A stretch of DNA of 64,000 nucleotides, taken from Sedimentisphaerales bacterium. GTDB taxonomy: Bacteria > Planctomycetota > Phycisphaerae > Sedimentisphaerales > SM23-30. Position 1 is the stretch's first letter; the number at the start of each line of letters is the position of its first letter. A model generated the notes under the pieces. It saw only the letters and a list, made by a program, of their open reading frames with translations, made no database searches and was not told the origin of the DNA. This document shows, piece after piece, positions 6,561 to 61,300 of the stretch. The stretch spans positions 1 through 64,000 of the forward strand of contig JANQJS010000016.1 in NCBI GenBank assembly GCA_028281535.1, read 5' to 3'. The position numbers and the translations under genes were made by a program.

Positions 6561-6587
6561 AAACAAAGAAAGTGTATCAAAATTTAG

Positions 6588-38546: not shown

Positions 38547-38640
38547 AATAACCCACTTGGATCAATTCCATTCACCGGATTTCCGTGGGCAAAAACACCG
38601 ATTAACAAAATTTTCTAAAAGATATGTTTTTGGGAGTAAC
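38547..38640 (-). repeat. Orphan RHS-tip boundary repeat, copy D
   Basis: Minus-strand junction in a slightly diverged form (TTACTCCCAAAAACATATCTT) followed by the frame AHGNPVNGIDPSGLLS. It starts six bases after the cobO stop codon and marks the left edge of the accessory island. Confidence 0.7.
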
Positions 38641-38822
38641 TAATCAAATCAGCTTTAAACTAGAAAATTTGATATTTCAAAAGATATAGATTAGTTTTTT
38701 ATTATCACTTTAGAATTATAAGAATATTTGACTGTTATGCCGCGAACAAAAAATCTACCTTAAAAATTGCCATAACTATTTTATTAAAAACAGCTTAACT
38801 ATTCCTTTTTGTCTTTCATATC

Positions 38823-38851
38823 TTGACAACTCCCAGACAGTTGTATAGTAT
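38823..38851 (+). promoter_or_regulatory. Candidate promoter for the TPR / Lon-AAA operon
   Basis: TTGACA at 38823-38828 and TAGTAT at 38846-38851 are separated by 17 bases; TATACT overlaps at 38849. It lies about 170 bases before the TPR gene, leaving a long leader without an evident Shine-Dalgarno. The rest of 38641-39022 is AT-rich with nothing else recognised. Confidence 0.45.
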
Positions 38852-39022
38852 ACTGATCTCAATACTTAACAATAGCAATTAATCCGTCGCAAAAGATTAG
38901 ACGTATTTCATAATGAATATTTATTAATATTTATATTCGTATTGTCAAATAAGTAAGAAATCAATAAAGAGTAATAGTGATAGGGAATTAAGATATAAAC
39001 CTGCTCGATAGTAAAGCCCCTT

Positions 39023-40192
39023 ATGAAAGAACAAATTGAACATCTGTTGGATGAATGGAATAATTCCGGTATTGAACCACATAGATTATTAGAATATGAT
39101 CCCGGTGAAAGATATTTTTTAGCAAAATTATATGATGAAGTCAGTAAAACTTTTTCTTTAACTTTCAAAAGTGATTATTACTATGATCCAGCATTTGGAA
39201 GGAATGTATATCACACATATTCAAAAGTTATAGCTTCATGTTTATGGCTAGAGGATCAAGCGGATATCATATATGAAACATTATGTGTTAAACAACAACT
39301 ATGTAAAAAAGTTTCTAATGTATCAGTAGTTGACTTATCCGCAGTCATCTTTGACGGTATTAGTTGGCTTGGCTTTCCCGTTTTGACTTTAAGTGTTTTG
39401 CTAGCAAAGTATGGAATTCATAAAATATGCCATTGCGAAAATGGAAGCCCTAAAAAATCATCATCAAATATTTTTAAACCGCTTACACATTTTTATTTAA
39501 AGGATGCAACCGCCGCTCAACCGAGCGCACATTATGAAGGTTTTTTACGCGTTGCTCTTATATATGTTAGCCAAAACAATTACGAACTTGCAAGAAAAAG
39601 ACTCAAAGATTGTGAGGCTTGGTTAAGAGAAGAAAAATCGATCAAGCTACCCAAAAAACTTAAACAAGAATTGTTAGATGAATATAAAGATAAAAAACGA
39701 GACAAAATATTTGATAAGAAAAAATTAAAGTGGGGAAAACATCTGTTGGCCACTGATTTCAGAAGTGTTGGGCGTCATATTTTAAATATGGCATTAAAGG
39801 AAGATTCTGAAGGCAAATTAACCACTCAACAAGATAAAGCGGTGATCTTCAATGAAATTGGATATGCCTATGTTCAAATTGGAGACTATAATAAAGCAAG
39901 AAAGTTGTTAAATGAGGCATTAGATATCTTGCCTAAAGACTCTGCAGCATTAGATAGCCTTGGGTGGTTAGAGTATAAGGAAGGTAAATATACAACGGCT
40001 AAGAAATTCTTTGAAAGATCGATTAAACATGACAAAAAATATCATTATGAAACCCAATATCATTTAATTTGCACGTTAACGGCATTGGGTCAATATGATA
40101 AAGCTTTTTTGATTTATGATGAAATCAGAGAAAAGGATCCCCGCAACAAATGGTGTTTGGAAGCAAAAAAAATATTACCTAGGAGTATTTAA
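39023..40192 (+). CDS. TPR-repeat protein coupled to a Lon-like AAA+ ATPase
   Basis: The 389-residue protein has an unrecognised N-terminal region (1-170) with a hydrophobic stretch (WLGFPVLTLSVLLAKYGI), a basic middle segment (KKLKQELLDEYKDKKRDKIFDKKKL), and two to three TPR motifs at about 270-385 (FNEIGYAYVQIGDYNKARKLLNEAL, LGWLEYKEGKYTTAKKFFE). TPRs bind protein partners. The stop and the next start overlap as TAATG, so the two products are translated together and probably interact. It could be the substrate adaptor or sensor of the ATPase. No known enzymatic motif was seen. The codon use is more AT-rich than in the cobalamin genes. Confidence 0.75.
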   Translation: MKEQIEHLLDEWNNSGIEPHRLLEYDPGERYFLAKLYDEVSKTFSLTFKSDYYYDPAFGRNVYHTYSKVIASCLWLEDQADIIYETLCVKQQLCKKVSNVSVVDLSAVIFDGISWLGFPVLTLSVLLAKYGIHKICHCENGSPKKSSSNIFKPLTHFYLKDATAAQPSAHYEGFLRVALIYVSQNNYELARKRLKDCEAWLREEKSIKLPKKLKQELLDEYKDKKRDKIFDKKKLKWGKHLLATDFRSVGRHILNMALKEDSEGKLTTQQDKAVIFNEIGYAYVQIGDYNKARKLLNEALDILPKDSAALDSLGWLEYKEGKYTTAKKFFERSIKHDKKYHYETQYHLICTLTALGQYDKAFLIYDEIREKDPRNKWCLEAKKILPRSI

Positions 40193-41310
40193 TGGCCAAC
40201 GAAAATAATGATAACGAAATATCCGTTGAAAATGTATTGCGAGAACAAGCTCGAATACAAGCTGAAGAGGCAAAAAAAATAAAAGAAACACCTTTTAATA
40301 AATTGCGAGAAAAAATATTAAATTCTCCTATGCCTCCTTATGCACGAAATAAAATTGATGAAATTTTGGATAGGCTTGAGACCGGTATTCAAACGGATTA
40401 TAATTTTGAAAGAGCTGTTGAATACACTGACTGGTTGATGAAATATCCGTGGAATATAACTCGACCAATTAATAAAACGATTAAGGAAATAGAAATACAA
40501 CTAAAAAGTACTTTCTACGGCCGCAATGAGATTATTGAGGAAATACTTAATTATGTTTCCTTATACAAACTAAACCAAGAGTCTCCTCATGGATTAAAAC
40601 TTTGTTTTGTTGGTTCTCCTGGCACTGGCAAAACATATATAGCAAAAAAAATAGCCGAATCGCTTAATTTTGATTTTACAGTTGCTTCTATGGGTGGTGC
40701 CGCTGATGCTTCATGGTTAAAAGGAATACCAAGGCATTATTCCGGTTCGCAACCGGGTCGAATTATTCGAGGCATGTGCGAAACTCAGCATTCAAATTGT
40801 ATATTTATACTTGATGAGATAGATAAAATTGGAGAAAATCACTCACATGGATCACCTTCAGACGCTTTACTTGAAGTAATTGATCCAGATAACAATGAAT
40901 CATTCGAAGATCAATATTTGGAAATAGCTGTTGATTTGAGTAAGGTCATATTTATAGGCATTGCAAATAATATCCAATTTGTTAATTCTGTGTTATTAGA
41001 CAGATTTCAAATAATTTATTTTAATGATTATTCGTTTGAAGATAAAGTTCAAATCAGTAAAGCATTTTTATGGAATGAATTGTTAGCTAAGTATCATATG
41101 GATAAAAAAATTGTATCAATTACAGATGCTGCAATAAGAAAAATTATAAAAAAGTACGAAATATATTCCGGTATCAGAGAAGTAAAAAGGGCTTTGGAAA
41201 GAGTATTCACAAAGCTAGCTAGAAAAATAGTTGATCATAAAGAAACCCAAACAGGAAATAAAGCATATAAAATAAGATTAACTGCAAAAAACATTAATGA
41301 TTACTTGTAA
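40192..41310 (+). CDS. Lon-type AAA+ ATPase lacking both the N-domain and the protease domain
   Basis: The 372-residue protein matches the central helical and AAA+ part of Lon: MPPYARNKIDEILDRLETG, YPWN at about 84-88, YGRNEIIEEIL, Walker A GSPGTGKT (141-148), SGSQPGRIIRGM, Walker B IFILDEIDKIG (204-214), DALLEVIDPDNNESFEDQYLEI, sensor 1 IANN (257-260), arginine finger LLDRF (R271) and sensor 2 SGIREVKRAL (R329). Every ATPase residue I can check is present. It stops at AKNINDYL, which corresponds to the Lon AAA/protease boundary, so the Ser-Lys protease domain is absent. It should unfold or remodel proteins without degrading them. The next gene is convergent and 17 bases away, so it is not a split protease. 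Confidence 0.85.
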   Translation: MANENNDNEISVENVLREQARIQAEEAKKIKETPFNKLREKILNSPMPPYARNKIDEILDRLETGIQTDYNFERAVEYTDWLMKYPWNITRPINKTIKEIEIQLKSTFYGRNEIIEEILNYVSLYKLNQESPHGLKLCFVGSPGTGKTYIAKKIAESLNFDFTVASMGGAADASWLKGIPRHYSGSQPGRIIRGMCETQHSNCIFILDEIDKIGENHSHGSPSDALLEVIDPDNNESFEDQYLEIAVDLSKVIFIGIANNIQFVNSVLLDRFQIIYFNDYSFEDKVQISKAFLWNELLAKYHMDKKIVSITDAAIRKIIKKYEIYSGIREVKRALERVFTKLARKIVDHKETQTGNKAYKIRLTAKNINDYL

Positions 41311-41327
41311 AAATATTTCATCAAATA

Positions 41328-42551
41328 TTAAGAATGAAAATTCATCTTGTCAAAATACCATTTCGATTGCATATTACTAACAATTAATGCAATATTTTCA
41401 TCTTGAAAATATTTGTGGAAATACTTTCTAGCGATTTTCTGGATTTGCATTGCTCGATCAAGAACCTGTTCAAACTCTATGGTGTGTTCAGGCAGAAAAA
41501 GCTCGTCAGAAACTTTGTGCCATATCGTTTTCAACTTTTCATGATATACTGGGTTTCGATAGGCACCGTCTGTTAACAAACGTTTAATTGAATGCGAATC
41601 ATTAAGTGGGCCTTGCGTCATTAATTTTCCTAATAAATCTGTAATGGGTTCAGAAATTAATGACCCACAAGACGAACGTAATGTGCACAAGGATTCAACG
41701 CGATTTTCTTCCGCAACACGTTTTTCATCAATTATTTCGTCTGGTGGCTTAGAATTATTTTCTTTATATCTATTAATTATCCAACTTAGAGATTCTTTTG
41801 AGACACTATACAATAGATGAGAAATCAGTACTCGATTTAAATACTCAGTGATTTTGTTACTTTTACGGGCATTTCTTGCTACCATATCAGCTTTAGTAAC
41901 TAAATCTAGTGTTCGATTAACCTTTCCATCGATATCATAAAAATTGGGCATATTTTCAGAGAGTAATATACAAGCTCCATAGATTCCAGGATTAGAAGAA
42001 ATTTCAATAGTAATATCATCAATAAGTGTTAATGGCTCAAGCTTTGACGAATTGATGACTCCTTTATAGCTAATCCATGTTGACAAGGCCGTTGAGATAG
42101 AACTAGTTAATGGTACTGAAAAGTCAATATGATTTTGAATAGATATATTTAAATACGCATAATCTTCTGGATTATATGATTTGGCATATTTAATGATCTT
42201 CAAATATTGAGCACGATAATGAGAAATAATATTTGCTATGGATTTAGAAAAAGAAATAGATGTAAATAAATTAGCCGCACTCAATAAATTTATGAATCCG
42301 TAAATAACTCTTTTTTCCCATTCCTCTTTTAAATTATTAACTTCTTCTTTTGCACTTTTAACAAATTGAGTATCATTAGAATTAATTAAATTTAGTAGAT
42401 TTATTGTCTTAGCAGAACTAATTGATTCTAATGAATTGTAAGTTGATACATGAAGAAAGTGTAATGTAGCTTCTATAAGATGTTTTTGGACGTCTTCATG
42501 AATGACATTGGAATTTTGTTGTATTGAATCTAAAAGGGTTATGATCTCCAT
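41328..42551 (-). CDS. Unrecognised helical protein, convergent with the Lon-like ATPase
   Basis: The 407-residue protein is rich in helix-forming, Asn- and Ser-containing sequence, with no signal peptide or catalytic motif I recognise. It includes YGFINLLSAANLFTSISF and several polar helices. It follows the coiled-coil membrane protein gene by 10 bases, so the two are cotranscribed. Its end lies 17 bases from the end of the TPR/ATPase operon. AT-rich composition like its neighbours suggests the whole block arrived together. Function unknown. Confidence 0.7.
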   Translation of the reverse strand: MEIITLLDSIQQNSNVIHEDVQKHLIEATLHFLHVSTYNSLESISSAKTINLLNLINSNDTQFVKSAKEEVNNLKEEWEKRVIYGFINLLSAANLFTSISFSKSIANIISHYRAQYLKIIKYAKSYNPEDYAYLNISIQNHIDFSVPLTSSISTALSTWISYKGVINSSKLEPLTLIDDITIEISSNPGIYGACILLSENMPNFYDIDGKVNRTLDLVTKADMVARNARKSNKITEYLNRVLISHLLYSVSKESLSWIINRYKENNSKPPDEIIDEKRVAEENRVESLCTLRSSCGSLISEPITDLLGKLMTQGPLNDSHSIKRLLTDGAYRNPVYHEKLKTIWHKVSDELFLPEHTIEFEQVLDRAMQIQKIARKYFHKYFQDENIALIVSNMQSKWYFDKMNFHS

Positions 42552-42561
42552 TATAATAATA

Positions 42562-43071
42562 TTATTTCCTTAGTAGATTAAGCAATGGTTTTTCAAGCAA
42601 TTTTACCAGTATACGAGATTTTCTTTTTGTAAGTCCAAAATTATTGAGGATATTTTCGAGATCTTCAGTATTGCCAGCAGACAAATAGATACTATTATAT
42701 CGTTCATCCTTTTTTGCAAGATTGATGATAATATCAGTACAAACCTGTTCTAGTTGATTTAAACGTTCTTTGGTTTTAATGCTATCATCTTGAAGATAAG
42801 AAATTTCACGTTCTAAATAAGCAATCTTTTTTTCAAATGTTGAAATTGTATTATCAGAATCATTTTTTGAAAGCCTATTTTTTATAAGCTGTTCAATAGC
42901 TGTTTTTAATACTGTTTTGGCTAGCCAGGCAATTATAGCCAAGAGTGGTAGAATTATCTCAAGCGAAGCCCAGGGTTGTATATGCCCACAGCCTTTAGTG
43001 GCAAAGTCTTGGCCGTAACCAGAAAGCTCTTTCTCTATTTCATCCAAATATAAATTGTTATTAGAGTTCAT
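42562..43071 (-). CDS. Small membrane-anchored coiled-coil protein
   Basis: The 169-residue protein has a hydrophobic helix at about 32-55 (SLEIILPLLAIIAWLAKTVL), then a predicted coiled coil at about 70-120 (STFEKKIAYLEREISYLQDD, KTKERLNQLEQ), and a basic C-terminus (KRKSRILVKLLEKPLLNLLRK). It looks like a membrane-tethered oligomerising protein. It is first in a two-gene operon with the 407-residue protein. No family recognised; membrane-active effectors of defence or toxin systems can look like this, but that is inference. Confidence 0.65.
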   Translation of the reverse strand: MNSNNNLYLDEIEKELSGYGQDFATKGCGHIQPWASLEIILPLLAIIAWLAKTVLKTAIEQLIKNRLSKNDSDNTISTFEKKIAYLEREISYLQDDSIKTKERLNQLEQVCTDIIINLAKKDERYNSIYLSAGNTEDLENILNNFGLTKRKSRILVKLLEKPLLNLLRK

Positions 43072-43288
43072 AAATACTCTCTATTTAAATTAATAAAGTA
43101 TGAATATTTTAATTATGTTTTAGCCCAGCGAATCCAACGAGTATTAAAATAAGGTAAATAGTAACATACAATAATTCACCTAATTAAATTTCTCAAAACT
43201 TACATTTAATCCACTTTTTATTCTCTTACAGCCATAATATAACATATTCTTAGAATATTGCATAGCATTTAATACGAAGGAGAAACTC

Positions 43289-43390
43289 TTGAACTCTAAT
43301 AATATCCGTTTACCAAAATCATGGCCGAAACATATTAAATCCGGTATATTGTATGCCATTGGCTTGGCGTTTTATGGCTTAACTCATTAA
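43289..43390 (+). pseudogene. N-terminal fragment of another IS transposase
   Basis: From a TTG at 43289 with GAAGGAG upstream, the plus strand reads LPKSWPKHIKSGILYAIGLAFYGLTH and stops. This resembles the start of integrase-type transposases common in Planctomycetota (PxxWPKxxxSAxLHxISLA). It overlaps the last codons of the antisense MltR-like gene. Confidence 0.5.
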
Positions 43391-43763
43391 GTTTATGTAA
43401 TTCACGATTCCAATTTTCAATCCGCGAGTCATTGAAATCACATTTTTTCAAATCGTGTGCAAAACAATTTCGTATTTTTCTAATTAGATGTAAGCTTGCT
43501 CTTACATCATTACTAAGTAATCCCATTCTTGAAGCAATTTCAATCTTTGCACTAAAGCTTCCAAGAGGTGCGGTAGGACCTTCAAATAGTGGGTCTTCAT
43601 TGGATTCGCAGGGAGTAAGAATAATTGAGAGCAACTGAAATAATATTTCATCTAGATAACACGCTGACAAAATTACTTTTGCTCGGGTACTCTCTGTGAT
43701 TATAGATATATCGAAATGATCTGACCATTCGCCCGCAATATCAGTTTTGTTGTCTTTTGCCAT
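43335..43763 (-). CDS. MltR/HEPN-like protein with an IS-altered 3' end
   Basis: The 142-residue protein resembles MltR-type or HEPN-like helical proteins: a helix with ACYLDEILFQLL, then GPTAPLGSFSAKIEIASRMGLL, then LHLIRKIRNCFAHDL. RNCFAH has the Rx4H spacing of HEPN ribonucleases, so it may be an RNA-cleaving toxin; MltR relatives share the helix pattern without known nuclease activity. The last 15-20 codons are antisense to the IS fragment at 43289-43390, so the original C-terminus is probably lost. ATG 43763 is a plausible start. Confidence 0.55.
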   Translation of the reverse strand: MAKDNKTDIAGEWSDHFDISIITESTRAKVILSACYLDEILFQLLSIILTPCESNEDPLFEGPTAPLGSFSAKIEIASRMGLLSNDVRASLHLIRKIRNCFAHDLKKCDFNDSRIENWNRELHKLNELSHKTPSQWHTIYRI

Positions 43764-43948
43764 ATAAACTCCAATTAATTAATCACCAAAATATAAGTGA
43801 AATCTAAGGAAACATTTCTGCAAATAATTTAGACACTATGCTTTTAACTTTCTAATTCTCTTCTTATTTAGCTTCATAGGCTATGGATTTCTTGCTTTTT
43901 ACAAGGAACACGACAATTACTAAAACACTAGATTGATACATTAAAAGT

Positions 43949-44173
43949 TTATGGCATCGTGGATAATTTTCCAGTAACGGCTTGTTCTTCAAGGTTCAAA
44001 TTCAATAGTTCAGTCGGGTCAATATTATTAACCGGGTTTCCGTGAGCATACAGATATTTATGGAAACTCATAGGTACAATCTGACTACCAAAAAATGGAT
44101 CTTTTCGATTGAATATTCCACTATCAGGTGCTTCCAGTACACCGTTTAGGTCATTCGCCTGGCTCCAAAGCAC
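43949..44173 (-). pseudogene. Orphan RHS core end with short tip
   Basis: The frame reads SGIFNRKDPFFGSQIVPMSFHKYLYAHGNPVNNIDPTELL, the hyperconserved end of an RHS core, followed by about 20 tip residues and a stop. Unlike the boundary repeats, this copy keeps true RHS core sequence upstream of HGNP and lacks the shared junction block. The upstream core is missing. Confidence 0.7.
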
Positions 44174-44375
44174 TTGATAAATATCTCAATTATCTAGCAA
44201 TAAATCGAAATCGAGCCAAGGACAAGGTTCATAATTCAACTGTTGAAGATTTAAGACAAGAATTGGCAGAATCCAAACGAAGAGAAAAGCTGGTTTATGA
44301 TCGATTACATCTTAATCTCTTGTAAAGTAGTGGAAAGTCCAAACCCAACAAATAAGCCAGCTAACGCAAATTTAC

Positions 44376-44458
44376 CAGTTGGGTCGATGTAATTAACCGG
44401 ATTAGCGTGGCCAAAAAGATGGGTAGGAAAATTTCGCTAATAAGCATTTTTTTGAAGT
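44376..44458 (-). repeat. Orphan RHS-tip boundary repeat, copy F
   Basis: Diverged minus-strand junction (ACTTCAAAAAAATGCTTATTA) followed by the frame for HANPVNYIDPTGKFALAGLF, with tip coding to about 44330. A small plus-strand ORF at 44128-44325 lies next to it and resembles a coiled-coil fragment, but I could not assign it. Confidence 0.65.
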
Positions 44459-44489
44459 GTCTTTTCAATGCTCGTTTTCAGTGCAAATC

Positions 44490-44541
44490 TTGACAATTTG
44501 CCTTAAGTGGTGTACAAATAAAATGTCATTTCATTGTACAC
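44490..44541 (+). promoter_or_regulatory. Transposase promoter with overlapping inverted repeat
   Basis: TTGACA (44490-44495), a 17-base spacer and TACAAA (44513-44518) form a good sigma-70-type promoter. GTGTACAA (44510-44517) and TTGTACAC (44534-44541) are perfect inverted repeats; the left arm overlaps the -10 box. This could be an operator or an early-transcript hairpin that limits transposase expression. Confidence 0.6.
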
Positions 44542-44575
44542 TAGACACTTACGACAGAACGAGAGAAATAGCAAG

Positions 44576-45631
44576 ATGAAAATTATAGATCCGTTGATGT
44601 TTATCATTGCACTGTCAAACAAGAAAGATTTAGCTGAACAACTTCAATATCTGAAGGCCGAAAATGAAATTCTACGAGCACGTTTGCCTAAACATATTAA
44701 AACCACGCGAAAAGAACGATCCATTTTACTCAAGTATGGCAAGCCATTGGGAACTGCCATAAAATCGTTGATATCAATCGTTACACCACAAACGTTTTCT
44801 CGATGGATAAGAGAAGAAGATAAATACACCTCCTATCAACCATCAAGACGGCGACGAACACCTGAACAAATCAGGACATTGGTATTACGTATTGCCCGTG
44901 AAACAGGCTGGGGATACACACGAATTTTGGGTGAACTTCGAAAATTAGGAATTCGCAAAATATGCCGTTCGACCATTGTAAATATTCTTCATGCTCATTA
45001 CATTAATCCATCACCAAAACGTGCTGGTTCAAAATGGAAAGAATATATAAAACGCCATGCTGAATCACTTTATGCATGTGATTTCTTTACTAAAAAAGTG
45101 TGGACACCACTTGGCTTAAAGAAGATTCATATCTTGGCGTTAATTAATATTGGTTCAAGAAAAGTTAAAATTCTTGGGACAACCAGTACTCCAACAAAGT
45201 ACTGGATGGCTCAGAAAGCTGAAGAACTAGTTAAGTACTTTGAGAAAGAGTCAATATCAGTGGAAGGTTTATTACATGATCGAGATCCACGCTTACTGAG
45301 TGCTTTCGATAATGTATTGAAACATAACGAGATTCCAGTAATACCTGTTACTGCATATTCGCCAAATTTAAATGCTTATATAGAAAGGTGGATAAAATCA
45401 ATCAAAGAGGAATGCTTGAATCATTACATTGTTTTTGGCGAAAGACATCTTAAATATCTAATTGATGAATATGTTTCTTATTATAATACTCTTCGACCAC
45501 ATCAAGGCGTAGGCAATAAGGTGCTTAGTTTGCAAATTTCAGCCCTAGAACCTGATGAAAATAATCTTAAAAATGTTATTCGCGAATCCCGACTAGGAGG
45601 ATTACTTAAACACTATTGTCATGCTGCATAG
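44576..45631 (+). CDS. Integrase-type (IS3-like) transposase, intact
   Basis: The start is ATG 44576 (MKIIDPLMF), preceded by a GAGAGAAA purine-rich stretch; the frame opens at 44534 inside the promoter repeat. The 351-residue product has an N-terminal helical and HTH-like region (AEQLQYLKAENEILRARLP, TPQTFSRWIREE), then an HTH_21-like segment (WGYTRILGELRKLGI), and an rve integrase core with D in YACDFFTKKVWT, D in LLHDRDPRLL and E in AYIERWIKSIKEECL. It ends GGLLKHYCHAA. All three catalytic residues remain, so it could be active and could mobilise the decayed relatives at 3276, 15216 and 22213. Confidence 0.9.
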   Translation: MKIIDPLMFIIALSNKKDLAEQLQYLKAENEILRARLPKHIKTTRKERSILLKYGKPLGTAIKSLISIVTPQTFSRWIREEDKYTSYQPSRRRRTPEQIRTLVLRIARETGWGYTRILGELRKLGIRKICRSTIVNILHAHYINPSPKRAGSKWKEYIKRHAESLYACDFFTKKVWTPLGLKKIHILALINIGSRKVKILGTTSTPTKYWMAQKAEELVKYFEKESISVEGLLHDRDPRLLSAFDNVLKHNEIPVIPVTAYSPNLNAYIERWIKSIKEECLNHYIVFGERHLKYLIDEYVSYYNTLRPHQGVGNKVLSLQISALEPDENNLKNVIRESRLGGLLKHYCHAA

Positions 45632-45674
45632 TGATTTATCTGCCTTGATAAATTAGCTGATAAAGTTTGATTAT

Positions 45675-46001: not shown

Positions 46002-46019
46002 ATCTATCTCTTGATTTGA

Positions 46020-46685
46020 TTAATAGATTAATGTGACTGAGTTAGCCTCTTTGTCAATTTGAACATCTTTAACCACTGTTCCTTCGGGCACATTTTTTAG
46101 TTGTTCTATTAATTGCCCAGTAAAACTAAGATTGGCAAGTGAATCACAAAGTTCAATATTGTCTGGATCTTCTTCACTGCCATTTAATATCGGAGGGTGC
46201 TTATAGCTCAAGTGCTTAAAAGGTTCCCAGTCAAGACTATACTTATTAAAGAAATTTCTTGCTATCGCCAGTTTTTCTACAAGCATTTCTTCGCTATCAT
46301 CTACTACATCTTCTATAAAGTCAGCAAATGTGTCAGCAGTAAAATATGTTTGACCATTGCTTGGATTTAAAAAATAAATAGCATTTCCCCGATTTCCACG
46401 CTTGAAAAAATATTGATCACCGAATAAATCTTGGGCAAATATAAAACTTTGTTCGTCTAGATCATAATGCTTCTTCCATAAGCCAGCTTTATTCCATTCA
46501 ATTACATTATGACGTAAATAGCCTTTTATTCCAAAGAAATGAAATACTTTATCTTCAGTTAAGCCACCATTAGTTTCCTTAATCAAATTTAAATAGTCTT
46601 CTGGTAAATCTCCAGGTATAGCATCAGCACTAGTTACAAATATTTCGTCAAATTTACTTGATTGCGATATTTCTTTGAGCAGCAT
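46020..46685 (-). CDS. SUKH (SMI1/KNR4)-type immunity protein, paralogue 2
   Basis: The 221-residue protein has the SUKH motifs LPEDYLNLIKETNGGLTEDKVFHFFGI and LFGDQYFFKRGNRGNAIYFLN. About two thirds of positions match the neighbouring 225-residue protein by eye, including the shared ending (EGTVVKDVQIDKEANSV). SUKH proteins neutralise toxins, often nucleases, by direct binding. It starts eight bases after its paralogue, and the pair is probably a recent duplication. Confidence 0.8.
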   Translation of the reverse strand: MLLKEISQSSKFDEIFVTSADAIPGDLPEDYLNLIKETNGGLTEDKVFHFFGIKGYLRHNVIEWNKAGLWKKHYDLDEQSFIFAQDLFGDQYFFKRGNRGNAIYFLNPSNGQTYFTADTFADFIEDVVDDSEEMLVEKLAIARNFFNKYSLDWEPFKHLSYKHPPILNGSEEDPDNIELCDSLANLSFTGQLIEQLKNVPEGTVVKDVQIDKEANSVTLIY

Positions 46686-46693
46686 GATAGAAA

Positions 46694-47371
46694 CTAGTAT
46701 ACTAATTTGACTGTATTAGTTTTTTTATCAACTTGTATTTCTTTAATTGCAGTCCCTTCAGGAACATTTTTTAACTGTTCGATCAGTTGACCATTAAAAC
46801 TCAGATTGGTAATCGAGTCACACAATTCGATATTATCAGGATCATCATCGCTGCCACTTAGTATTGGAGGATGTATATAACTTAAATGCTTAAATGGTCG
46901 CCATTTTACATCTTTTTGTTCAAAAAATTGTTTGGCAACATCAAGCTGTTCAACCATCATCTCTTCACAATCATCAATGAGATCATCAATAAGTGCTTCG
47001 AGTCTATCTGCGGCAAAATGCGATTTTCCTTTACAAGAATTAAGAAAATAAATAGCATTTCCTCTTTTTCCTCGCTTGAAGTAATATTGGTCGCCAAATA
47101 AATCCTCTGCGAATACAAAACATTGATCATCTAAACCATAATGTTTTTTCCACAGATCGGATTTGTTCCACTCCAAAACATTATGGTGAAGAGGGCCGTT
47201 AATTCCAAAAAAATGAAATACTTGGTTTTCGGTAAATCCACCATTTGTTTCTTCTATTAATGAAATGTATTCGCTTGGAAGGTCAGAAGGCAGTTCCTGA
47301 ATACCGTTTTGAAATATCTCTCCTAATTCTTTTATTTCAACTGAAGTTAAGTCAATATTTTGAAGTTGCAT
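46694..47371 (-). CDS. SUKH (SMI1/KNR4)-type immunity protein, paralogue 1
   Basis: The 225-residue protein contains LPSEYISLIEETNGGFTENQVFHFFGI, NVLEWNKSDLWKKHYGLDD and LFGDQYYFKRGKRGNAIYFLN. It follows the orphan nuclease-like tip at 47450-48202 by 78 bases and is the likeliest cognate immunity gene for that tip. The duplicate downstream may protect against a related toxin. Confidence 0.82.
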   Translation of the reverse strand: MQLQNIDLTSVEIKELGEIFQNGIQELPSDLPSEYISLIEETNGGFTENQVFHFFGINGPLHHNVLEWNKSDLWKKHYGLDDQCFVFAEDLFGDQYYFKRGKRGNAIYFLNSCKGKSHFAADRLEALIDDLIDDCEEMMVEQLDVAKQFFEQKDVKWRPFKHLSYIHPPILSGSDDDPDNIELCDSITNLSFNGQLIEQLKNVPEGTAIKEIQVDKKTNTVKLVY

Positions 47372-47449
47372 TTTTCACCTCGCTAATAGATTTAACATGT
47401 CACATGCAAAGATTGTCTCCGTTCTCAGAATAAAATCAACAAAATTATA

Positions 47450-48202
47450 TTATGGCTGCGGACCATGAATTATAATATCATGGATAGTGTCACCTTCCTT
47501 GAGCCCTAACCTAGCAGCTTCTAGGTCAATCTGTTTCCCAATACTTCCATTAACAGATGCATCAAGCATTGTTAAATTACTTCTTGCATTCGGATTATCT
47601 AAGGCTCCTGAAACTTGTAGATCTATCTTATGATCAACTTGTCTTGTACTCATAAACTCATCCACCAATGCCGCAGCTTCATCTTTTGTTTTTCCTTGAC
47701 TTTGATATAATTGAGATAATCTATCTTTGACAGCTTTACGATATGCCCTTTGAAGTCTAGGCTCGCGAATATCATCGGTATTTTTTGCAAATATTAACCC
47801 TCCTTGTTGAGCAGAATTTTTGAGTTTTGTAGTTTTACGCCAAAAATCCCTAATACTCCCTGTATTATAACGCAAATGCATTATGTTCCGGGAAGAATTT
47901 GCAAAGCTGGTTCCTAGATTTCTTAAAGCGATAAAATCAGCCGCAAGTACACCACCTGTGGGATTACCGGCAGCCGTAGCCATAAATACATTAGCAGCTT
48001 CTGGGTCTGTTGCAATGGCATATACACTAAAACCAGCAAGAACTCCTGAAGCAATTTTTATCGCACCTACTAATTTAGGAGACATTTCGATAAAAACAGC
48101 GACTTTAATAGCCAATGTCATCATTGTTTCAGACATGCTGACCATCCCAGTTGGGTCAATGTTATTCTGTGGGTTGCCGTGGGCAAAAACACCGATTAAC
48201 AA
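47450..48202 (-). CDS. Orphan RHS-tip toxin, nuclease-like
   Basis: The 250-codon frame opens with a TTG inside the boundary repeat and reads LIGVFAHGNPQNNIDPTGM, then a membrane-prone segment (VGAIKIASGVLAGFSVYAIA), and a C-terminal domain with EFMSTRQVDHKIDLQVSGALDN and NLTMLDASVNGSIGKQI. The H-x-DLQxxG and NLxxLDxSVNxSxG pattern is that of HNH-like toxin domains at RHS and related C-termini. The frame has no RHS core, start codon or Shine-Dalgarno of its own; a TAG stop lies just upstream in the junction. It is thus probably a silent cassette that can be expressed only after recombination with a full RHS gene. Confidence 0.72.
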   Translation of the reverse strand: MLIGVFAHGNPQNNIDPTGMVSMSETMMTLAIKVAVFIEMSPKLVGAIKIASGVLAGFSVYAIATDPEAANVFMATAAGNPTGGVLAADFIALRNLGTSFANSSRNIMHLRYNTGSIRDFWRKTTKLKNSAQQGGLIFAKNTDDIREPRLQRAYRKAVKDRLSQLYQSQGKTKDEAAALVDEFMSTRQVDHKIDLQVSGALDNPNARSNLTMLDASVNGSIGKQIDLEAARLGLKEGDTIHDIIIHGPQP

Positions 48203-48233
48203 AAATCGCTATAAGAGATGTTTTTTGAAGTAA
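48147..48233 (-). repeat. Orphan RHS-tip boundary repeat, copy G
   Basis: The clearest copy: minus-strand TTACTTCAAAAAACATCTCT, then TATAGCGATTTTTGTTAATCGG, then the frame GVFAHGNPQNNIDPTG. It is the only copy followed by a full-length tip. On the minus strand it is preceded by an IS left-end remnant at 48258-48335. Confidence 0.8.
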
Positions 48234-48257
48234 ATGACAGATTTATATTTTGAATCG

Positions 48258-48335: not shown

Positions 48336-48381
48336 GCACAGACAACAAAGACAACTTGCCTTCGTCTGATTATTTTTACTT

Positions 48382-49305: not shown

Positions 49306-49321
49306 ACCTTATTTTACTTCA

Positions 49322-52300
49322 TTACCTTAGCCCATCAATCCCACCGACAGACTTAACAGCCTTTTGATAACACTCATAAATACCTTTATACTGTTCAGGC
49401 CATTTTGATTCAAGCCATTTATAGCAATCCCCAAGCTCATCCAACCATTTTTGTTTGCCCATACTCCTAAGAATACTTTTCATTGTTCTACCATTTGATG
49501 GATGTAAATGAGAAAACTGACTATTCAATATTTTATAATGAAGCCCATCTGGAGCACCCACATGATACTTATGCGGTAACACATATAATCGCTGACGCCT
49601 AAAAGGTTTTACTGCAGCTTTAAAGACAGTATGGTGCTTTCTGGCTCTATCGCCTAATGCAATAGACACGGAACCAGCCTTGACGACCTTTACTGCAGTG
49701 CTTGCGGCAAACGCCATTCCTCTCGTTACAGCAGCAAAAGCCAAACCATAAATGTACTGTTCAATAATACCTTTTACAACTTCCTTGGTAGCTCCAACAG
49801 CATCATTGATCATTTCTCTTGCGGCAAGGAACGCTTCGTGTTGAATACCTTGAGCTTCTGCATAACTCATGAAACCCTTATTTGCCAACCCTCTAACAAG
49901 TGATGTAAAACTAGTCAGATCATATATGCCTGTTATTGAGCGATATACTCGCATTAATGGAGGCACAAATATGGCAGCTATAGTTGTTATAGCTGTTAGA
50001 GCCACAAGAACTTCTACAATGGCAAATAACCCTGTTGGGTCAATCATATTAACCGGGTTTCCGTGTGCAAAAGTATATTTATGTAGACTCAAAGGATCAC
50101 GGTTGTTACCAGCAAATGGATCATAGCGGTTAAACCGTCCATTGTTTTGGTTATACCATCTTGCACGGTTATAGTATTGCTCTGCATTGGAATCATAGTA
50201 TTCACCAGCGTATAGTAAATCCGTTTCTGGAGTCGTGGTATCAAGATTGACACCATAAGCGTCATAGTCGAACGTTTGTGTTATCACGACATTATCATCA
50301 ACCAGCGTTTGATTGGCGAGTTGACGAGTACTGCCGTGCCCATCGCACAATAGATACTGAACGGTTCCGCTACTAGATTGTGATAAGACATCATCGCCAA
50401 TGGTATAACTCGTTCTTTGTGATCCATTGTGATCAACGAGATTTTCTTCAAAGACTTGTGCGTAGCCGGTGTGGTTATGTTCATCCACTAAGAAGGTTTT
50501 GGTATAGCCTGTATCTGCTGGGATAACGCCATCGATCTTATAGATATAGGTTTCAGTCACTCGAATGCCACGATGATTATAAGTGTACTCCGTAATATCT
50601 TCGACTAGATCTAATTCAGGATCTGCATCCAAGTCTTCCTTGTGCTGGCGTGTCACACGCTCCATGCGACCTTGAGAGTTGTAATCGTAGAGGACTTTTT
50701 CGATGAAGTTATTATCTGGGTCAGCCTCGTCTTTGTCCGCTAGAATCATCTGATCCATTTCACCATTGGCGTTATAGCTATAGAGCTTCTTGGTATTGTT
50801 CTCACCCCAGATTTCTTCATAGCGATTGACCAATTCCTCATAGATATTGGCATTGTCTGCTAACAACTGGAAGCTCCCCGGACCGATGACAAAGGTCATA
50901 GCTAGCATCGCTGCCAAGCCGCGATAGAACGCAGGCACTCTGCTCGACGACTGACAATGTGACAACAAAACAGTTCGCAGCAACGCAAAGAGAAACGCAA
51001 AACTCACAAGACCTAATGCGACATTCAGTCCTTGACCTAACAAACGACTCGGTAATGTTTTCCAAACAATGCTGCCACCGCCATCAACACCACTATCAGC
51101 GACATAGGTCGGATAACATTTTGTATTACCACACACATGAGCAGGATCTTTTACTTCACTAACGAGTTGATCCTTATCATTGTAACAATACTTCGTCGTC
51201 AGCGTCACACCATTAACATTAACAGCATGACTCAATCGATTACCAACAAGATCATAGGTATAATTCGCCGTATAGCTCTTACCCCCCGTAGCCTGATCGG
51301 TCGACTTCTCTTGAGTAAGTCGGTTCAAATTATCATACTCAAATTCCTTATGATACGTATCCATCACGTCATTCACACTGCGAACCTGTTCAGCAGATTT
51401 CGCACGCATACCATCGACATAGACGTCATAGTCGTAGTTGGCAAGCTGCGTGGTGTCTTTATTATGCACCAGCGTATCGAGACTGTTGAGTGCATCGTAG
51501 GTATAAGTCGATTCAATACCGTTGGCATACTTGATCGTTGCGCGATTGCCGACTTCATCGTAAGTATATTGCGTTAGGTCATCGACTGATTGACCATCAC
51601 GCATAACATCGCGCACTTCTTTGAGACGACCTAACTCATCATACGTAAAGTGAACTTCGGAGTTGGCTGTCCTGGTCCATTGCTTGCGGCCAGTGTTATA
51701 ATAGCCATACTCAATCACACCTTCATCGCTGGTGACTTTGATCAACTCGCCGCGACCATTGTAGTCATAGTCTGTCGTATGCGTGACCGTCGCACTGCCA
51801 TCAACGTAGCGTTCGATGGTATCCTGACGACCAAAGTTGTCATAAGTATTGACGAACTTATCTTTAAGGACATGGCCGCTATCGTAATACAAGGTTTCTT
51901 TTAACTGACCTAACTTGCCGCCAGTGATGTTGGCACCATAATAGTGATAAGTAATATACTGACCATCCATCTTAGTTACTTTCGTCACACGACCGAGCGT
52001 ATCGTAGTCGGTTTGCTGGAACTTAACGGTGGCCGAAATCCCTGCAAGCTCATCCAGTGCATCTTGCAATGTCACCACAGGCGAAGCAGGCAGGTAAGGT
52101 TCATACATCCGCGTTTGAGCATGGAATTCATTATATTCAAATAGACGCACACGGCCTTTCGGATCAACAATCGCAACCTGATTCCCTGCGGTGTCATGGA
52201 TGTAGTTGCAAGCAGGGTGCGTTGGCGTATTACTATTCTCTGGATCATCCACTTGCGGCAACGTCACCGTCGCTAAACGACCATTGGCATCATAACCAAA

Positions 52301-55300
52301 CGTTTTATGCACCGCACTACCGATTGCAGTAGCGATGGTCAAGTCAGACGTTTGATATTGACGGCCAAAGCTATCGTAAGAAACATGCGTGCGCGATTCT
52401 TTACTGCTCTTGGTGGTCAATGTATCATCATACGATTCACGCGATGGAAGAACGGTTTCTTTCCCTCGACCTAACTCATCATAAACGAACTGCGTTTTAA
52501 AGTTATCCGCGTTCGCACCGGCAACATTACCACGAGCATCTATCACATGATCACGTTGGTTACCATCATAGCCTGTAACGGTTCGGAAGCCTAATGCGTC
52601 AATCGTTTCGGTTTGACGACCAAAGTTATCATATTGATATTGCGTATACCGCTTGACTTCTTCTTCATCGGTGACATAGCTGCGTTCGACTTGGCCAAGG
52701 ATGTTATAGTCGCTGCCTGAGCTGCTCAACCAAACCGCCTGCTGGGTATCAGTTGCCGCAAGTCCATCGGCTCGCACGCTTGTCTTGCCGATGAGTTGGC
52801 TGTCTTCATCGTAAAGGTTATCGAGAACAATGACGACATTATCCCAGCGAATCGTTTCTTGGACGCGACCAAGATCGTCATACTTGGTTTGGGTAGCCGT
52901 CCCACGTCCTGTTGGCGAATGTGGATCACCCGATACAATTACACGACCGGACTTATCATAGAGTGTACGCTGTACGGTTTTAACCGCACCACCATCAACT
53001 TCACGCGTAGCAACTTCAACCGTGTTGCCAAGTTTATCATAGTAATATTCAGTTACACCACGATATTGATCATATGTTTTCTCAACTTGACCAATATCGT
53101 TATAAATCGTTTCACTTAATAGCTCAGAAGAAACGCAACTTCCTGTACATGCAGGGTACGGCTCAGGAAAACGATCTGATCCATTCAAATAATTCGAAAA
53201 ATCATACGTATTTTCATCAACATAAGTCTCAACAATCCTTCGCGTTTTTAATATGCGTCCTTGATGATCCAAGTCATTCAAGTTAAGGATTCGAACGTCA
53301 ATACCATCTTTATCCTTATCATGCGTCCAACTTACTACAAGATGTCCATTGGCATCATAATAGGAATACTGTTTAGGATCGTTGTTCGTCTGGACCCAAT
53401 AAGGTTGTTGCGACGAGCGACTCTTAGCCTCATCGTAATGGTAGGTCGTGACCATATGATCCGTTCCAGCTATATCATGCTGCATGACAGTTTTGATTTT
53501 ATAATCGTCTGTGTAAGTGTTGCTGGTTTTTTGAATCTCATTAACAAAATCTGTTGGGCCAAAGACCTTGGTCTCTTTCAGGCGTTTGTTCTCGTAACTG
53601 TTGGTTGTCACTTGAACGACCTCGTAGCCCGTTGGTGGACTGCTTGGATTTGGTTCGTAAGTTGAAAGAAATTCATTCGAAGCACCGCTTGACTGTTTCC
53701 ATTGAATTGTACGAGTCACATTGTTGTCAGAATCATACTCAAAGGTAATCACATTATGCATCGGATCGATCTGTTGTGACATGCGACCATTATCATCGTT
53801 ACGAGTGATGTTGATGATAAAGTTCGGGTCGGCGTGATCTTGCTTAGCATCATAGTAACGTGATTGGCGGGTTTTGGTTTCTGAGATGTCCACGCCATTA
53901 CCTGCGTAGGTGTAATCGTAGAAGGTATTGATCTGACCTGTGCCGTCGTGTTTGCTGACGACTTTGACGTTGCCCTTCTCATCGTAGGTATAGCTGGTGA
54001 CATTATTATTGCGATCAGTAACCGTTTCGGTTTTTCCTTCCAGGTCATGTTGGATCTCAATGCGATTACCTTGCGCGTCGATGGTGGCCTGCAACCTGCC
54101 GGCAGGGTCATACTCATAGCGAATCGGTGAAAGTCCTCGCTCGTCTTTGATGTCGGTAACGTAATGATCTTCAGAGCCGAATTGCTCGTTGCTGTATTTA
54201 ATCTCAATGATGTCGTACTTTTCATACTCATCTGTTTTCGTCGGATCGACCAGCTTTTTCACATGAGTCAGGTTGCCATAGCTATCGTAAAGATATTGGA
54301 GGCTCGGTTCACCTGGCGTATCACCTGGTGCATAGATAGCTGTAATGCGTCCATCCTTACGCTCAATATTTAGATGTGCTACGCTATTACCGAACACATC
54401 CTTGGCGTCAATGCGTTTAACGATCGGGTTTTCGCCATCGGTTACATCCACATCAAAGGACAGGCTCTCACCCGTGGCAAGCTTGACCGAAGAGACATAA
54501 GGTTGTCCCGCGGCAAAATATTTATACCCGCTATAGTCATCGCTGCCTTTGCGTTTGATGCCATAGGGTTTGCGATCAATGGTATAAGCCGTGCCATCGT
54601 CATCAGTATAGATAAACCCGGCAGGGTCATGATGACCATAATCCATCGATGTATCTTGATCCTGAGGTGGATCAAAGCTGCCAATGCCACGTTCGCGTGT
54701 CACCCATTGCAATCCGCTGCCACCATAACCGCCGCCGCCGTCAATTAATGTAAGGCCATCGGTCGTTTTAAATTTTTCAAACAGTTGTGAACTGGCATGA
54801 TTCACATCGAAGGAAGGCGTCATGTCGTCCGCATCAATATAAAGGAGGCGGTTACGGTAATGTGAATATTGGCTTCCACCATAAACAGGAGGCAATACCC
54901 CCGACTTCAATACCGAACGAAATGTCTTGCGGCGGCCATCGGGCAAGGTCAAGTTCACATCGCGATTGAATGGACTGCCACGGCGTATCGTACCTTCACC
55001 TGTATCTTTTGCGGGAAAGCGAACCTCATTCATTTCAATATCCATGTTGGCAATCGAATAAGTCCAGCCGTAACCAAAATCGCCATGCTTATCTTTTCGC
55101 AGACTATCGTAGGTTCGCACCACTCGCAGCGGCACGCCATTGACAGGAATGGTTAAATCTTCTTGACTGAACTTCACTTGCCCGATTTTCAAATCGCTCT
55201 GCAAGACGAATTCTCGCTGAACTTCCTCAGCCACTGTTATTTGACCACCTGCATAAATCTGAACATCCAGGGTTAATGTATGAAGGCCATTTTCAAAGCC

Positions 55301-58300
55301 GGTTAAGTCGATCGTACCAAGAGAATTTCCCGTGGTTGCATCAACATATTGATTTCGCCATCCGAAATTATTTAAAATTCCAGGCGTGACATTTTTATTA
55401 TCCACATAGATACGATATTTCACTTCTTCGGGGAAGATGTTATGCGTAGCGGAACCTAGAACTTCAAAGAGACTTTCTTTAATGATAATCGGTGAACGGG
55501 TTATTTCTATTGGTGCAGAGCCAGGCCCGCCATTATCGACTGGGTTCATATTTGAAATATTAGCAGTTGGCTCATCGATAGACCCTTTGATCACTTTAAA
55601 GCCAATGGTCGCGGTTTCATTGCCGCACACAATTTCAGCGGTATAAGAACCATCAACAAGATTCATTAGAGTCGAATCATATTGGAACGTTTGCAATAAA
55701 CCATCGCCTGTGACTTCTTGTGTATGGCAGATACCACTTACGCAAGAAGGGTGCTTGATATTGAGCGTGGCATTCGCTAAGGGGATAAACTTCACTTCAA
55801 ACGTATTGTTCGAATTCGTAACCTGTTCAGGTGTCACCTCAAGTTTGGAGATGCACATATTCTTACTGAATGAAAACGTATTCTCGCCAAGTACGCCATT
55901 GTCTGATTGATCTGATGCAAAAACAGATAGCGTATGGTTGCCATTATCCAAAGAATGAATTGGAAGTTGGATCGTTTGTTTGATTTTTCTAGGTGCCTGC
56001 TTTGTGCCTACTAATATTTGTTCAGTGACTTTCGCTCGAGCAGGTGATAATTTATCAATAGCAACGTCATTGAGATAGACCTGGATTTTATTGAGTGCGA
56101 CATTATCTTCAGCGATCACTTCGATGGTAATATCTTCTGTTACAGGTCCACTAATGCCCGTTGGAACCGGCTGCGAAATAGTAGTCGCAACAAAAGACTG
56201 AATCACCGGCGGCTGCCAATCAGACGAATAGGATTTTATATTAATAGTAATAGCGTCTGGGATTGTCTGCTCATTTGGAATGGTGGGCGTCAGAGTGACA
56301 TGATAATCACCTGGAATAGTAAACAAAACTTCAGGTTGAAGGTTCTTGTTGGATGTTAAGAACTTCATTTGCCCTTTAATATCCTTCGGTCCCGAATCCG
56401 TTTCGATTGTTTTTATGGGAACATTGGTTTCATCATAACTCCACTCGAAGGTTGCCTGATTCTTTTTAGGGCCAATGACAAAAGCCTGGTCTAATTTAGT
56501 AGGAACATGCGCTTTAATATTTGGATATTGCCCTGCCTTGGCAAAGGTAGAGACGCCATGAGGAAAGACGGTGACACGCATGACATCACTGTTCGACTGA
56601 CCATTCGACGTATTGGTCAACTCTAATTTAAAATAGAAAATCCCCGGCTCAGTGAAAGTAATATTGGGATCATATTTGTCAACTTCAGATGCAGGTATTC
56701 CTGGATGAACACCTATTGATCCATCAAGTACAGGATGCCATGTTTGGCTCACATTTGTTGAATCTCCAATAATAGATCCTTGCAAGATTGCATTCACACT
56801 CGGGTTTGATCCCGAGGGTAAAGTCACCTTAAGATTGGGACCTGCGTCAGAAACAAACTCCATGTTCTTCGCTGTTACGACCACGGAATCTCTGGCGATC
56901 ACATTACCTAACACATCATGTCCGTTGAATGTTAAGTGATATTTACCCGCTATATCAAACGTGGCATGAGCAATGTTAGGATCGATTGAATTAGGATCAA
57001 CATGCACCACACCTGAACCACCATCGTAACTCCAACTCACAGAAGCAGGCGATCCGCTAACAATCGACCCGATCAACTTCAAAGATCCAGATAGTATTGG
57101 AAAATCTGGTTGATTTGGATTTTCTTTCTCGGCATGTACTTTTGCTTGTTGTAGTGATGTCGAAATTGTCACTGAATCAGTATCTAAAATCGCACCAGAA
57201 CTATCCATGGCAACGAGAGTAAAATTATGAATACCACCTCGTTTTAACGTAATATCTGTGACAGGTGATGTTGGTTCTGAAATATCAATCCATTGATCAT
57301 CACCTTCATAGATCCATTGCCAGTTTGCAACAATACCGCTATTAAGTAATCCATTTAGACTTATTGGATCAGAAGATAATTCAACGGTTTGATCAAGCCC
57401 TGCACTGATATCGGCACCACCAGATTCTGGGGTAACAGTACCACTGCCTAGTTGAACATCGACGCTATCGATACCTACTATCAAATTATCTTTCTTTACG
57501 ATCAAATTAAATGTATAACGCTTTGGAGCTTGGGAATAATCAAAGTTATTAAATTTAACCCACGTTTGCAGTTTACTCGGCTGGCCAATAGTTACATCGC
57601 TGGGATTACCTGTATAAACCCATTCGGTCATCACATCAAAATCACCTTGCAGGCGTCCTAATAGATTTGTTGCTACGTAAGGAGAAGCTAGCTGCTGATC
57701 ACTTCCAGCATCAATGGCTTTTTCAGAAACCACAGAGATCCACAGACGATTAGAACTGACGTAACGACCTGATGAATTAAGAACGGTAAAGAGAAGTTCC
57801 ACTTGCCCTATACCAGAATTACCCTGCTTATCAAACAATTGAATCGTCGGATCCATTGTTTCTTCAGGAAGAAAGTTGGGATCAGGATGACTGAAAACCA
57901 CATCAAGATCAGATGGATTATTTAGTAATTGCCATTTGACTTTACAATGCTCCTCTTGACCACCAGCTTGACCATCTGAAAAATCACCGATTATATTAGC
58001 CGCTAACGTAACAGAATTTTCTGGTGCACTTAAAGTAATGTTTTCGCCAACGTCAGCACGAATATCAGGATGATTAACAAAAACGGTTATCCTATCTTGT
58101 CCTAACTCTTCCGTTCGAGCGGGATTCAATACAGCCAACTTAAATTCATAAACACCTGGAGAATCAAAGGTGACATCCGTTTGAGATAGTTCTGGCGTTG
58201 CAATCACCACGCCCGATTTCTTTGCACCAATATATGTCCATTGCATATCACTCGAACCGTTTTCCGAAGAAATTAACGTCGCCTTATTGGGATAAACTAT

Positions 58301-61300
58301 TGTTTGATCGCCACCAGCATCAACATCTAAGCCGGCCTTGACGGTGATGTTGATAAAATCACTGCCGACAGGTTTTTCGCCTACACTGCCGCCATAATCT
58401 TCAAAGACCGTGAGCATCAACCGATACTTACCCACACGATCGAAGAGTGCCTGCGGATCCAGCTGAGTTTCCTGTCCTATAGCAAAGACGTTTGTTGCAA
58501 GCTGAGGTTTTTCCAATACAGACCATTGATATTTCATGGTTCCAGGAGCAGGTGCGACCAATTCATTATTCCACAAAACGCGATTATAAAGAACCGTTGC
58601 CTGATTCAATCCAACGGTTTTAATCGAACCTTCTGCATCAATATAAACTGTACGATCATTACCAGCAAAGACCTTCATGACTGGAAATTCATACGCACCC
58701 ATATCGACTCGGGTACCTAACTCACGAAGCTCTTTAGCCACATCATGCTCCCCTGCTGGGCCTGTCCCCACATTAATCCCTGGCGAACCATGCTGCAATC
58801 GATAGTCAGAATCCACATTAAACGTCTCGATGCCTTTTCCCCAATGGTAAATTTTCTTCCCAGCTACCGGCGGTGTTTCAAAAGTATTAATTATATATTT
58901 AGGCGTGAACGTAATGGTTTTAGTTTCCGCATCAACATACGTTACCCGCCGCATCGTCGGTTCATGGTCAAAGGTAATCTGGTCGCCTATTTGAAAGTTC
59001 TCAATTGATTCTACGATAACACTAGTAGAAGAATTATTTACACCTTGTACTTCATCCGTTTTACTATCAATATACCCTAATCCCCAAGTTGTAATAACGT
59101 GATCAGAAAGCTGTCCCAATTCGTTGATATTTGGCTCGACTTTTAGATCTATCTCATTATTAAAACTATCAATTTCAATCTCAACAATACGGCGTGATAT
59201 ACCATCATTGCTAATTTCAACAATATTTCCCAGTGAATAGTTACCAGCCGTTGAAATATCTTCTAATGTCACAGTACCATCGCTTGACGAATTCTTAATA
59301 ATTTTATGAGAATCATAGGTATGAACAAAATTTGGATCTTGATTTATATTCGTTACCCCATTTGCGATCCCCCCAATATTACAATAGGTAATGGTATTCT
59401 CAGCTAATTGATTATCGGGATCATTTATATTTGTTTGATATGAATTATCTCCATTACCCCAAATAATACTATCTCGAATAGTCACAGGAAAAAGGTTATC
59501 TTCATGTTTGATACCATATAATTGATTGCCGGCAATTGTACAATTGACAATTTCACAACCTGGGTCTTGAAGGAAATAAAAGACACCTCCCTGATTTTCA
59601 TTGATCTCACAATTTTTTAATACCAATATTGTCGATTCGTGACACAAAACACCAACATTCACACGAACTAAACTCCGACTTAGGCCATTACCTCTAAGAC
59701 AAGCCTGCCCTCCTCCACATGAAATCGGAGAACCAGAAAAATTCTCAGTATCTTGGTTAATGGCTCCGGCTGTAATAGTAAAACCATCCAACGTCACTGT
59801 GTTATTTTCTACCTGAGCAATAACTGCCGGAAAATCTCGTCCTGAGCCATCAATAATGGTCTTTGATACAATATCAGCTTCATTAGGATCTGCGCTTCGC
59901 AATGTGATGGGCTTATTGATCGTGATATTTTCATAATAAGTTCCAGGAAAAACGACAATTTCATCATTAGCATTAGCATCATTAATCGCAAACTGAATCG
60001 TATGATACCAAATATTCTGTGTTGAGTTATGAATCCGAGTTGGAGCTATTTTTACAGGTGTGGGTAAGTATTTTACTTCAGTATCACCTACACCCAATTC
60101 ACCAAATGGTTGAGCACCCCAGGCAAAAATATTGCCATGGATATCTTTAGCAAGATTATGAAATGAGTCAGCTTCAATTTCGACGATATCTTTTAAATAG
60201 TCATCCCAATGATCACCATTATGATTCAAATCATCCGGTAAACCATCACCATTAGCATCCTGAGCTCGAATTTTGACTGGAATTGGATAAATATGTCTTT
60301 TGGGATTTCCTTGCCCCATGACACCATTAGATTTCTGAATAGGCCCAGTGCTATCCCAAACAAGAGAATCACCCCAAGCCCAAACGAAACCATCTCTGTC
60401 TAAGGCTAGAAAATGATTCCAGCCAGCTGCAACGCTTATGATATTAGATAAATATCCATCAGGATCACCATTACTATCTACATCTGGACCCACTACTCGA
60501 ATTGGAATGCTACTATCATTATTTATTGTATCACCCAGCCTGCCAATTGAAACTCCTGCATATTTTTCATCAAAATCATCGGTTTTTAAACTAGAACTTC
60601 GAATTCCTCCCCACACAAAGACTTCTCCGGTTTTCGTAGCTACAATTGAAATTCCCATGCCTGCATCGATTGCATATATGTCCTTTAAATAAGGGCCATA
60701 TTCCGGTTGAGAATAATCCATAGGTGCTTTAACAAAAACAGGGCGATCTTTTCGGATATTAGAAGTCTCTAAACCAATCCCTAATACACCATTTGCAATA
60801 TATCCCCGCGTATATTTACCACCACCACCAAGATTACCACTTTGTTTACCATTAAAACCCCAACTATAGACCTGCCCTCTACTGTTTAAAGCTAAATTAT
60901 GAATTGCTCCAGCAGAGATATCAATTATATTTGTTAATGGAAGTTCTGGACTAAACGGTTCTGGTGCTACTACTTGCACAGGTACAGATGAATAAGGCAT
61001 ACAATCTGGACTAGAACAACTCAACCCGGAAGAAAATAAGAAACCGGTATTATTACCTAACTCATAATTTAGATTACTCCCCCAACTCCAAACTTGACCA
61101 TTATTATCTAAAGCTAAGGCATGAAAACCATAGAGCATATTATAATGAAATTGTATAGTACTATTATACGTATTATATAGAGGATTATCGTAACTTGAAC
61201 TACGGTAATAACTATATCTTCCCGAGGATGCTGCCGATATAGTAATTATATTATCAAGGTATGTAAGATTTGTGTTTAAATCATATAATGGATCCTGATC

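Follow-up and report, generated by a model that had tools for sequence, protein, structure and literature searches.

In the usual account of Lon, a single chain combines an unfolding motor with a protease. A chaperone function of the Lon AAA+ part without proteolysis is cited for yeast Pim1 (PMC12994072), and BrxL, which binds DNA, has a Lon-like C-terminal fold in which no protease active site can be recognised (PMC10164562). Polymorphic-toxin loci usually collect cassettes and immunity genes (PMC3482391). In the locus described here, an ATPase limited to the Lon AAA+ module is encoded next to a TPR gene amid an Rhs toxin array.

The ATPase gene (40192..41310, plus strand) encodes a Lon-type AAA+ protein of 372 aa (TIGR00763, E 8e-85). 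An ORF check returned the same open frames, coordinates and strand for this gene and its upstream neighbour as an earlier note on this DNA. In profile searches, residues 15-357 correspond to positions 232-575 of 795 of NCBIfam lon (TIGR00763) and residues 13-372 to positions 227-579 of 784 of PRK10787 (endopeptidase La). The protein therefore runs from the late part of the Lon neck helix to the AAA/protease junction, and these limits agree with the earlier note, which had placed its ends after the Lon N-domain and at this junction. The further claim that the Lon central helices are kept holds for the last part of the neck helix, but the remainder is gone. The N-terminal LON substrate-binding domain is absent, as the alignment begins at profile position 232, and a Pfam scan of the TPR and ATPase genes found no Lon N-domain. 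The C-terminal Ser-Lys protease domain is absent as well. None was found in any frame of the window (the whole 64-kb stretch of DNA that was analysed), which rules out that it was overlooked through a frameshift. Lon chains in the PDB match the ATPase (best E 5e-58), and an AlphaFold2 model made with an alignment of 23 relatives has the Lon AAA+ fold (pLDDT 88.8, pTM 0.82). All of the 50 best Foldseek matches to this model were Lon, with a TM score by target length of 0.88 for the isolated Lon AAA+ domain 6n2i.

The ATPase residues listed in the earlier note are intact and align with the corresponding Lon residues, all on the plus strand: the Walker A motif GSPGTGKT (residues 141-148; 40612..40635), the Walker B motif DEID (residues 208-211; 40813..40824), the arginine finger R271 (41002..41004) and the sensor-2 arginine R329 (41176..41178). 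Sensor-1 N259 also aligns with its Lon counterpart, and Y183 (40738..40740, plus strand) is by alignment equivalent to the pore-loop-1 tyrosine in the Lon pattern ...RRTY-G..PG; the pore-loop tyrosine of LONP1 is Y565 (PMC12994072). Among 104 columns with at least 95% conservation in full Lons, those of ATPase chemistry were kept in 9 of 9 cases, as against 49 of the 95 other columns, with 46 changed (Fisher p 0.004), a comparison that is an argument from conservation and not a selection measurement, the protein being without close relatives for a rate test. Since the ATP chemistry is constrained and the other Lon-conserved columns are not, the protein reads as a working enzyme with changed partners or another role, and this appears a better fit than decay. 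The alignment also shows that the inter-subunit signalling (ISS) motif, DPEQ in LONP1 (PMC12994072), reads DPDN and that the pore-loop-2 region carries a one-residue insertion.

Directly upstream lies the gene for a TPR protein of 389 aa (39023..40192, plus strand). Its repeats occupy residues ~270-389, with a TPR_2 match at residues 276-306 (E 2e-14) and further repeats to ~374, and AlphaFold2 run on the single sequence was confident only over ~270-389. The earlier naming as a TPR protein thus applies to the last ~120 residues; the first ~260 match nothing, as no convincing Pfam, PHROG or PDB match was obtained for residues 1-~260. The reported TAATG overlap of the two genes is present in the sequence (40190..40194, plus strand), with one base common to the TPR stop codon and the ATPase start (TTTAATGGCC). 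The ATPase gene has its ribosome-binding site, AGGAG, within the end of the TPR gene (40181..40185, plus strand), six bases before the ATPase ATG. The probability that an open frame of either gene's length arises by chance in this base composition is ~1e-14. The overlap supports reading the two genes as one translation unit.

The host genome has a separate full-length Lon on contig C34 that is ~34% identical to the ATPase, and a Lon_C search of this genome gave the canonical lon as a strong match and one weak match of 22.6 bits elsewhere. When 76 Lon AAA+ regions were placed on a tree, the host Lon grouped with its own phylum. The ATPase lies outside the full Lons and the phage protease-less Lons on an end branch of ~4 changes per column, a placement whose exact position is uncertain and which is taken to mean only 'far from host Lon', given the tree program's warning about possible misplacement of long branches. 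The separate long branch, with the host Lon in its own phylum, rules out a recent truncation of the host Lon. The earlier note had likewise argued against a fresh truncation, and the long separate branch and the complete set of ATPase residues bear it out.

Among the matches listed, no further TPR-ATPase pair was found in plasmids, phages, viral contigs or the 681 genomes searched from two phyla. Within the same phylum, 225 of 392 genomes had matches to the ATPase at E 1e-20 and, among the matches listed, all were in longer frames except one, in a frame of 434 aa close to the end of a contig; in 289 genomes of another phylum the matches listed were all in frames of at least 537 aa. Identity of the ATPase to the sampled full Lons did not exceed 39% among the matches listed. 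No counterpart was found in plasmids and phages by tblastn or in viral contigs. When 84,980 species genomes were scanned for a motif, 8 matches came up, none resembling the ATPase; the motif assumes conserved spacing after Walker A, so that relatives with other spacing could escape it. Single-protein and degenerate-motif scans of viral and genome collections returned only full Lons and the phage protease-less Lons. One degenerate query, in which the ATPase was aligned with artificial variants to force ATPase-specific motifs, returned mostly ordinary Lons. The N-terminal part of the TPR protein had no match in 161 genomes of the order, in plasmids or in a close-relative contig scan, and one marginal match in the 392 phylum genomes. 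A search of the literature found no protease-less Lon with a TPR partner.

These searches bear on the earlier proposal of a designed machine, with the TPR protein as substitute for the N-domain. Such a machine needs a conserved pair, and neither a second copy of the pair nor one of either partner's specific part was found. Moreover, among the matches listed the protease domain is present in relatives from the sampled genomes, and the ATPase stands alone, a result that counts against that proposal. Since no second pair was found, a conserved two-part machine is not supported so far; the pair is a real oddity and not yet a demonstrated system. The earlier observation is thus confirmed and its interpretation partly supported.

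The earlier note missed the Rhs toxin-array setting of the pair. The pair lies in an AT-rich stretch between Rhs-tip junctions at 38.55 and 44.01 kb, with further junctions at 44.37 and 48.15 kb and that of the giant Rhs gene itself at ~50.1 kb; the junction motif is FAHGNPVNxIDPTG and variants. At least four orphan Rhs-tip junctions are arrayed on the minus strand behind the giant gene (38553-50266), and the pair is on the opposite, plus strand. The giant Rhs/YD-repeat gene (49322..64000, minus strand; RHS_repeat E 8e-38, Rhs_assc_core E 1e-15) runs off the window. Also on the minus strand are an orphan Rhs-tip cassette with a toxin-like C-terminus (47450..48202), two SUKH (SMI1/KNR4) immunity-type genes (46020..47371), an orphan Rhs-tip junction FGHANPVNYIDPTG (44374..44431), an orphan Rhs-core remnant ...YAHGNPVNNIDPT (44011..44128; TIGR03696) and an orphan Rhs-tip junction FAHGNPVNGIDPSG (38553..38609) that adjoins the cobO 3' end. 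The leader of this 38.6 kb copy is 74% identical to the leader of the 48.2 kb cassette, and its own cassette is cut off at the cobO 3' end. An insertion-sequence transposase is present in the same array. By analogy with described loci, the array has the usual look of a polymorphic-toxin locus. The host genome is rich in Rhs loci and has nine Rhs-core matches over the family cut-off, of which one is on the contig of the window (C48) and the others are on contigs C19, C23, C26 (twice), C43, C51, C58 and C65.

The pair converges on three minus-strand genes. An orphan gene of 407 aa (41328..42551) ends 17 bases from the ATPase stop; any link to the pair is putative, and no relatives were found in the searches made. 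Beyond it lie the genes for a 169-aa protein that is probably a coiled coil (42562..43071) and a 142-aa MltR/DUF4145-like protein (43335..43763) with an RNxxxH (HEPN-like) motif that reads RNCFAH. On a Shewanella plasmid, a 37%-identical relative of the 142-aa protein adjoins parAB. PADLOC, run on five genes, recognised none of them as a known defence gene. It scored the ATPase at 33 bits against DolB and 30 bits against IetA, which is at the general AAA level and far below the Lon match. Membership in Dodola is ruled out, with only the DolB score and no DolA match among the neighbouring proteins tested, as is membership in Iet, with no match to IetS among the five genes tested.

We give an even chance to the explanation that the two genes are an intact accessory pair and encode a protein remodeller driven by ATP, with a co-translated TPR partner. 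The ATPase would assemble into a Lon-like ring and pull substrate polypeptides with the kept pore-loop-1 tyrosine. Because it has no protease chamber, substrates would be let go unfolded or disassembled, but uncut. The TPR protein, made from the same message just before the ATPase, would most likely bind the ATPase, the substrate or both, and might do part of the job of the missing Lon N-domain. The pair would have come in with, or into, the Rhs toxin/immunity cassette array. The remodeller is supported by the limitation to the Lon AAA+ module, the nine kept ATPase residues, the long branch, the lack of a protease domain in the window, and the gene overlap with its internal ribosome-binding site; the phage Lons without protease and the chaperone function of yeast Pim1 (cited in PMC12994072) offer precedents by analogy. 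Against it stands the lack of a second pair, and hence of co-occurrence support for the partnership; TPR genes are common, so adjacency by itself is weak evidence. The change of DPEQ to DPDN and the pore-loop-2 insertion also count against the remodeller. Ring formation is uncertain, as the Lon protease domain and neck helix both help ring assembly and the ATPase is without the former and most of the latter.

Other explanations have to be weighed against the remodeller. The ATPase could be a functionless, decaying remnant of a Lon that was acquired laterally, lost its ends and is still open by chance. It stands alone among the matches listed in everything searched, many of its Lon-conserved residues are changed, and the array around it holds an insertion sequence and Rhs tips that are visibly broken, all of which favours decay. 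We nevertheless regard a remnant as unlikely, since there are two overlapping open frames with no stop or frameshift, both ends of the ATPase fall at domain borders, its fold is predicted confidently, and all nine ATPase residues were kept while about half of the other conserved columns changed. The pair could also be part of the Rhs array and protect against an Rhs toxin, or help to load one, by binding and unfolding it. Its position among SUKH immunity genes, with orphan junctions on either side (38.55 and 44.01 kb), agrees with such a role. The role seems distinctly unlikely given the opposite strand, the searches, which found no further Rhs locus with the pair, and the typical immunity protein, which is small, single-domain and without enzymatic domains (PMC3482391).

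The AT-rich variable region, the HEPN-like 142-aa gene nearby and the weak matches at the AAA level (33 bits to DolB, 30 bits to IetA) would suit an anti-phage module in which an AAA+ motor works with a TPR sensor, perhaps together with the 142-, 169- and 407-aa genes. However, these two matches span the general AAA fold and are far below the Lon match, no Dodola or Iet partner was matched, and PADLOC found no known defence gene among the five tested, so that we hold a module of this kind to be improbable. Lastly, AAA-only subunits could enter the ring of the host Lon and alter or poison it, as the host has a full Lon and the ATPase module is homologous to it. With ~34% identity, a changed ISS motif and substitutions at many conserved positions, mixed rings are unlikely, and the TPR gene would be left unexplained; a regulator of the host Lon is therefore very improbable.

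If the remodeller explanation is true, the pair would be a natural motor-only Lon with a TPR protein and would imply that the Lon motor can be separated from proteolysis and re-aimed, like ClpX-type motors. It would also offer a compact system for what the Lon N-domain and protease ring give to assembly and substrate choice. Because the pair sits in the Rhs array, a role in bacterial conflict can be put to the test. It is a long shot that a protease-less Lon ring with a co-translated TPR adaptor unfolds toxins, or an invader, in the Rhs locus, as immunity or defence by unfolding rather than by binding or cutting.

Compared with the LonA protease (MEROPS S16; TIGR00763), the ATPase is alike in the Lon-type Walker A and B motifs, pore-loop-1 tyrosine, sensors and lid, and the fold of solved LonA structures matches its model. 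It differs in having no N-domain, no protease domain and only the tail of the neck helix. In one other locus a canonical Lon (L151:1951-4383) is directly followed by a second Lon-like protein (4479-7337) that has LENIDK for LDEIDK at Walker B, so that Asn takes the place of the catalytic Glu; from these residues it is possibly an inactive partner subunit. BrxL is also a Lon-related AAA+ protein with no recognisable protease active site and is linked to conflict systems (PMC10164562), but it carries an N-domain of its own as well as a Lon-like C-terminal domain and is <20% identical to Lon. By contrast, the ATPase has a true Lon AAA+ module and ends after the AAA+ lid, with no C-terminal domain. 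The earlier comparison with BrxL, as a Lon-like protein with the protease part kept, was a loose one, since BrxL binds DNA and has no protease active site that can be recognised (PMC10164562). With DolB of Dodola and IetA, which are stand-alone AAA+ ATPases of small defence operons, the ATPase shares general AAA similarity only. Orphan toxin tips and SUKH immunity genes surround the pair as in Rhs polymorphic toxin arrays (PMC3482391). An Rhs immunity gene, however, would be expected to encode a small, single-domain protein and to lie on the strand of its toxin, whereas the pair consists of two larger proteins on the opposite strand. We know of no AAA+/TPR pair described as an immunity module. 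A parallel in domain loss is a phage Lon family without protease domain (L056:5254-6969, L102:2143-3864, L145, L147, L148, L149 and L154), which turned up in the viral scans and had no protease in the gene or in the flanks fetched. No TPR neighbour was recognised at phage loci L056 or L102; the latter also has a ThiF (E1-like) gene at 8200-8904. The phage proteins are in a phage-like setting and apart from the ATPase on the tree, and a Lon N-domain, absent from the ATPase, is still recognisable in L056 and L154 at least, but they share with it a Lon AAA+ module without protease. A protease-less Lon is not unique to the ATPase, as the phage family shows the same loss; Lon has thus lost its protease more than once and, by the tree, probably independently.
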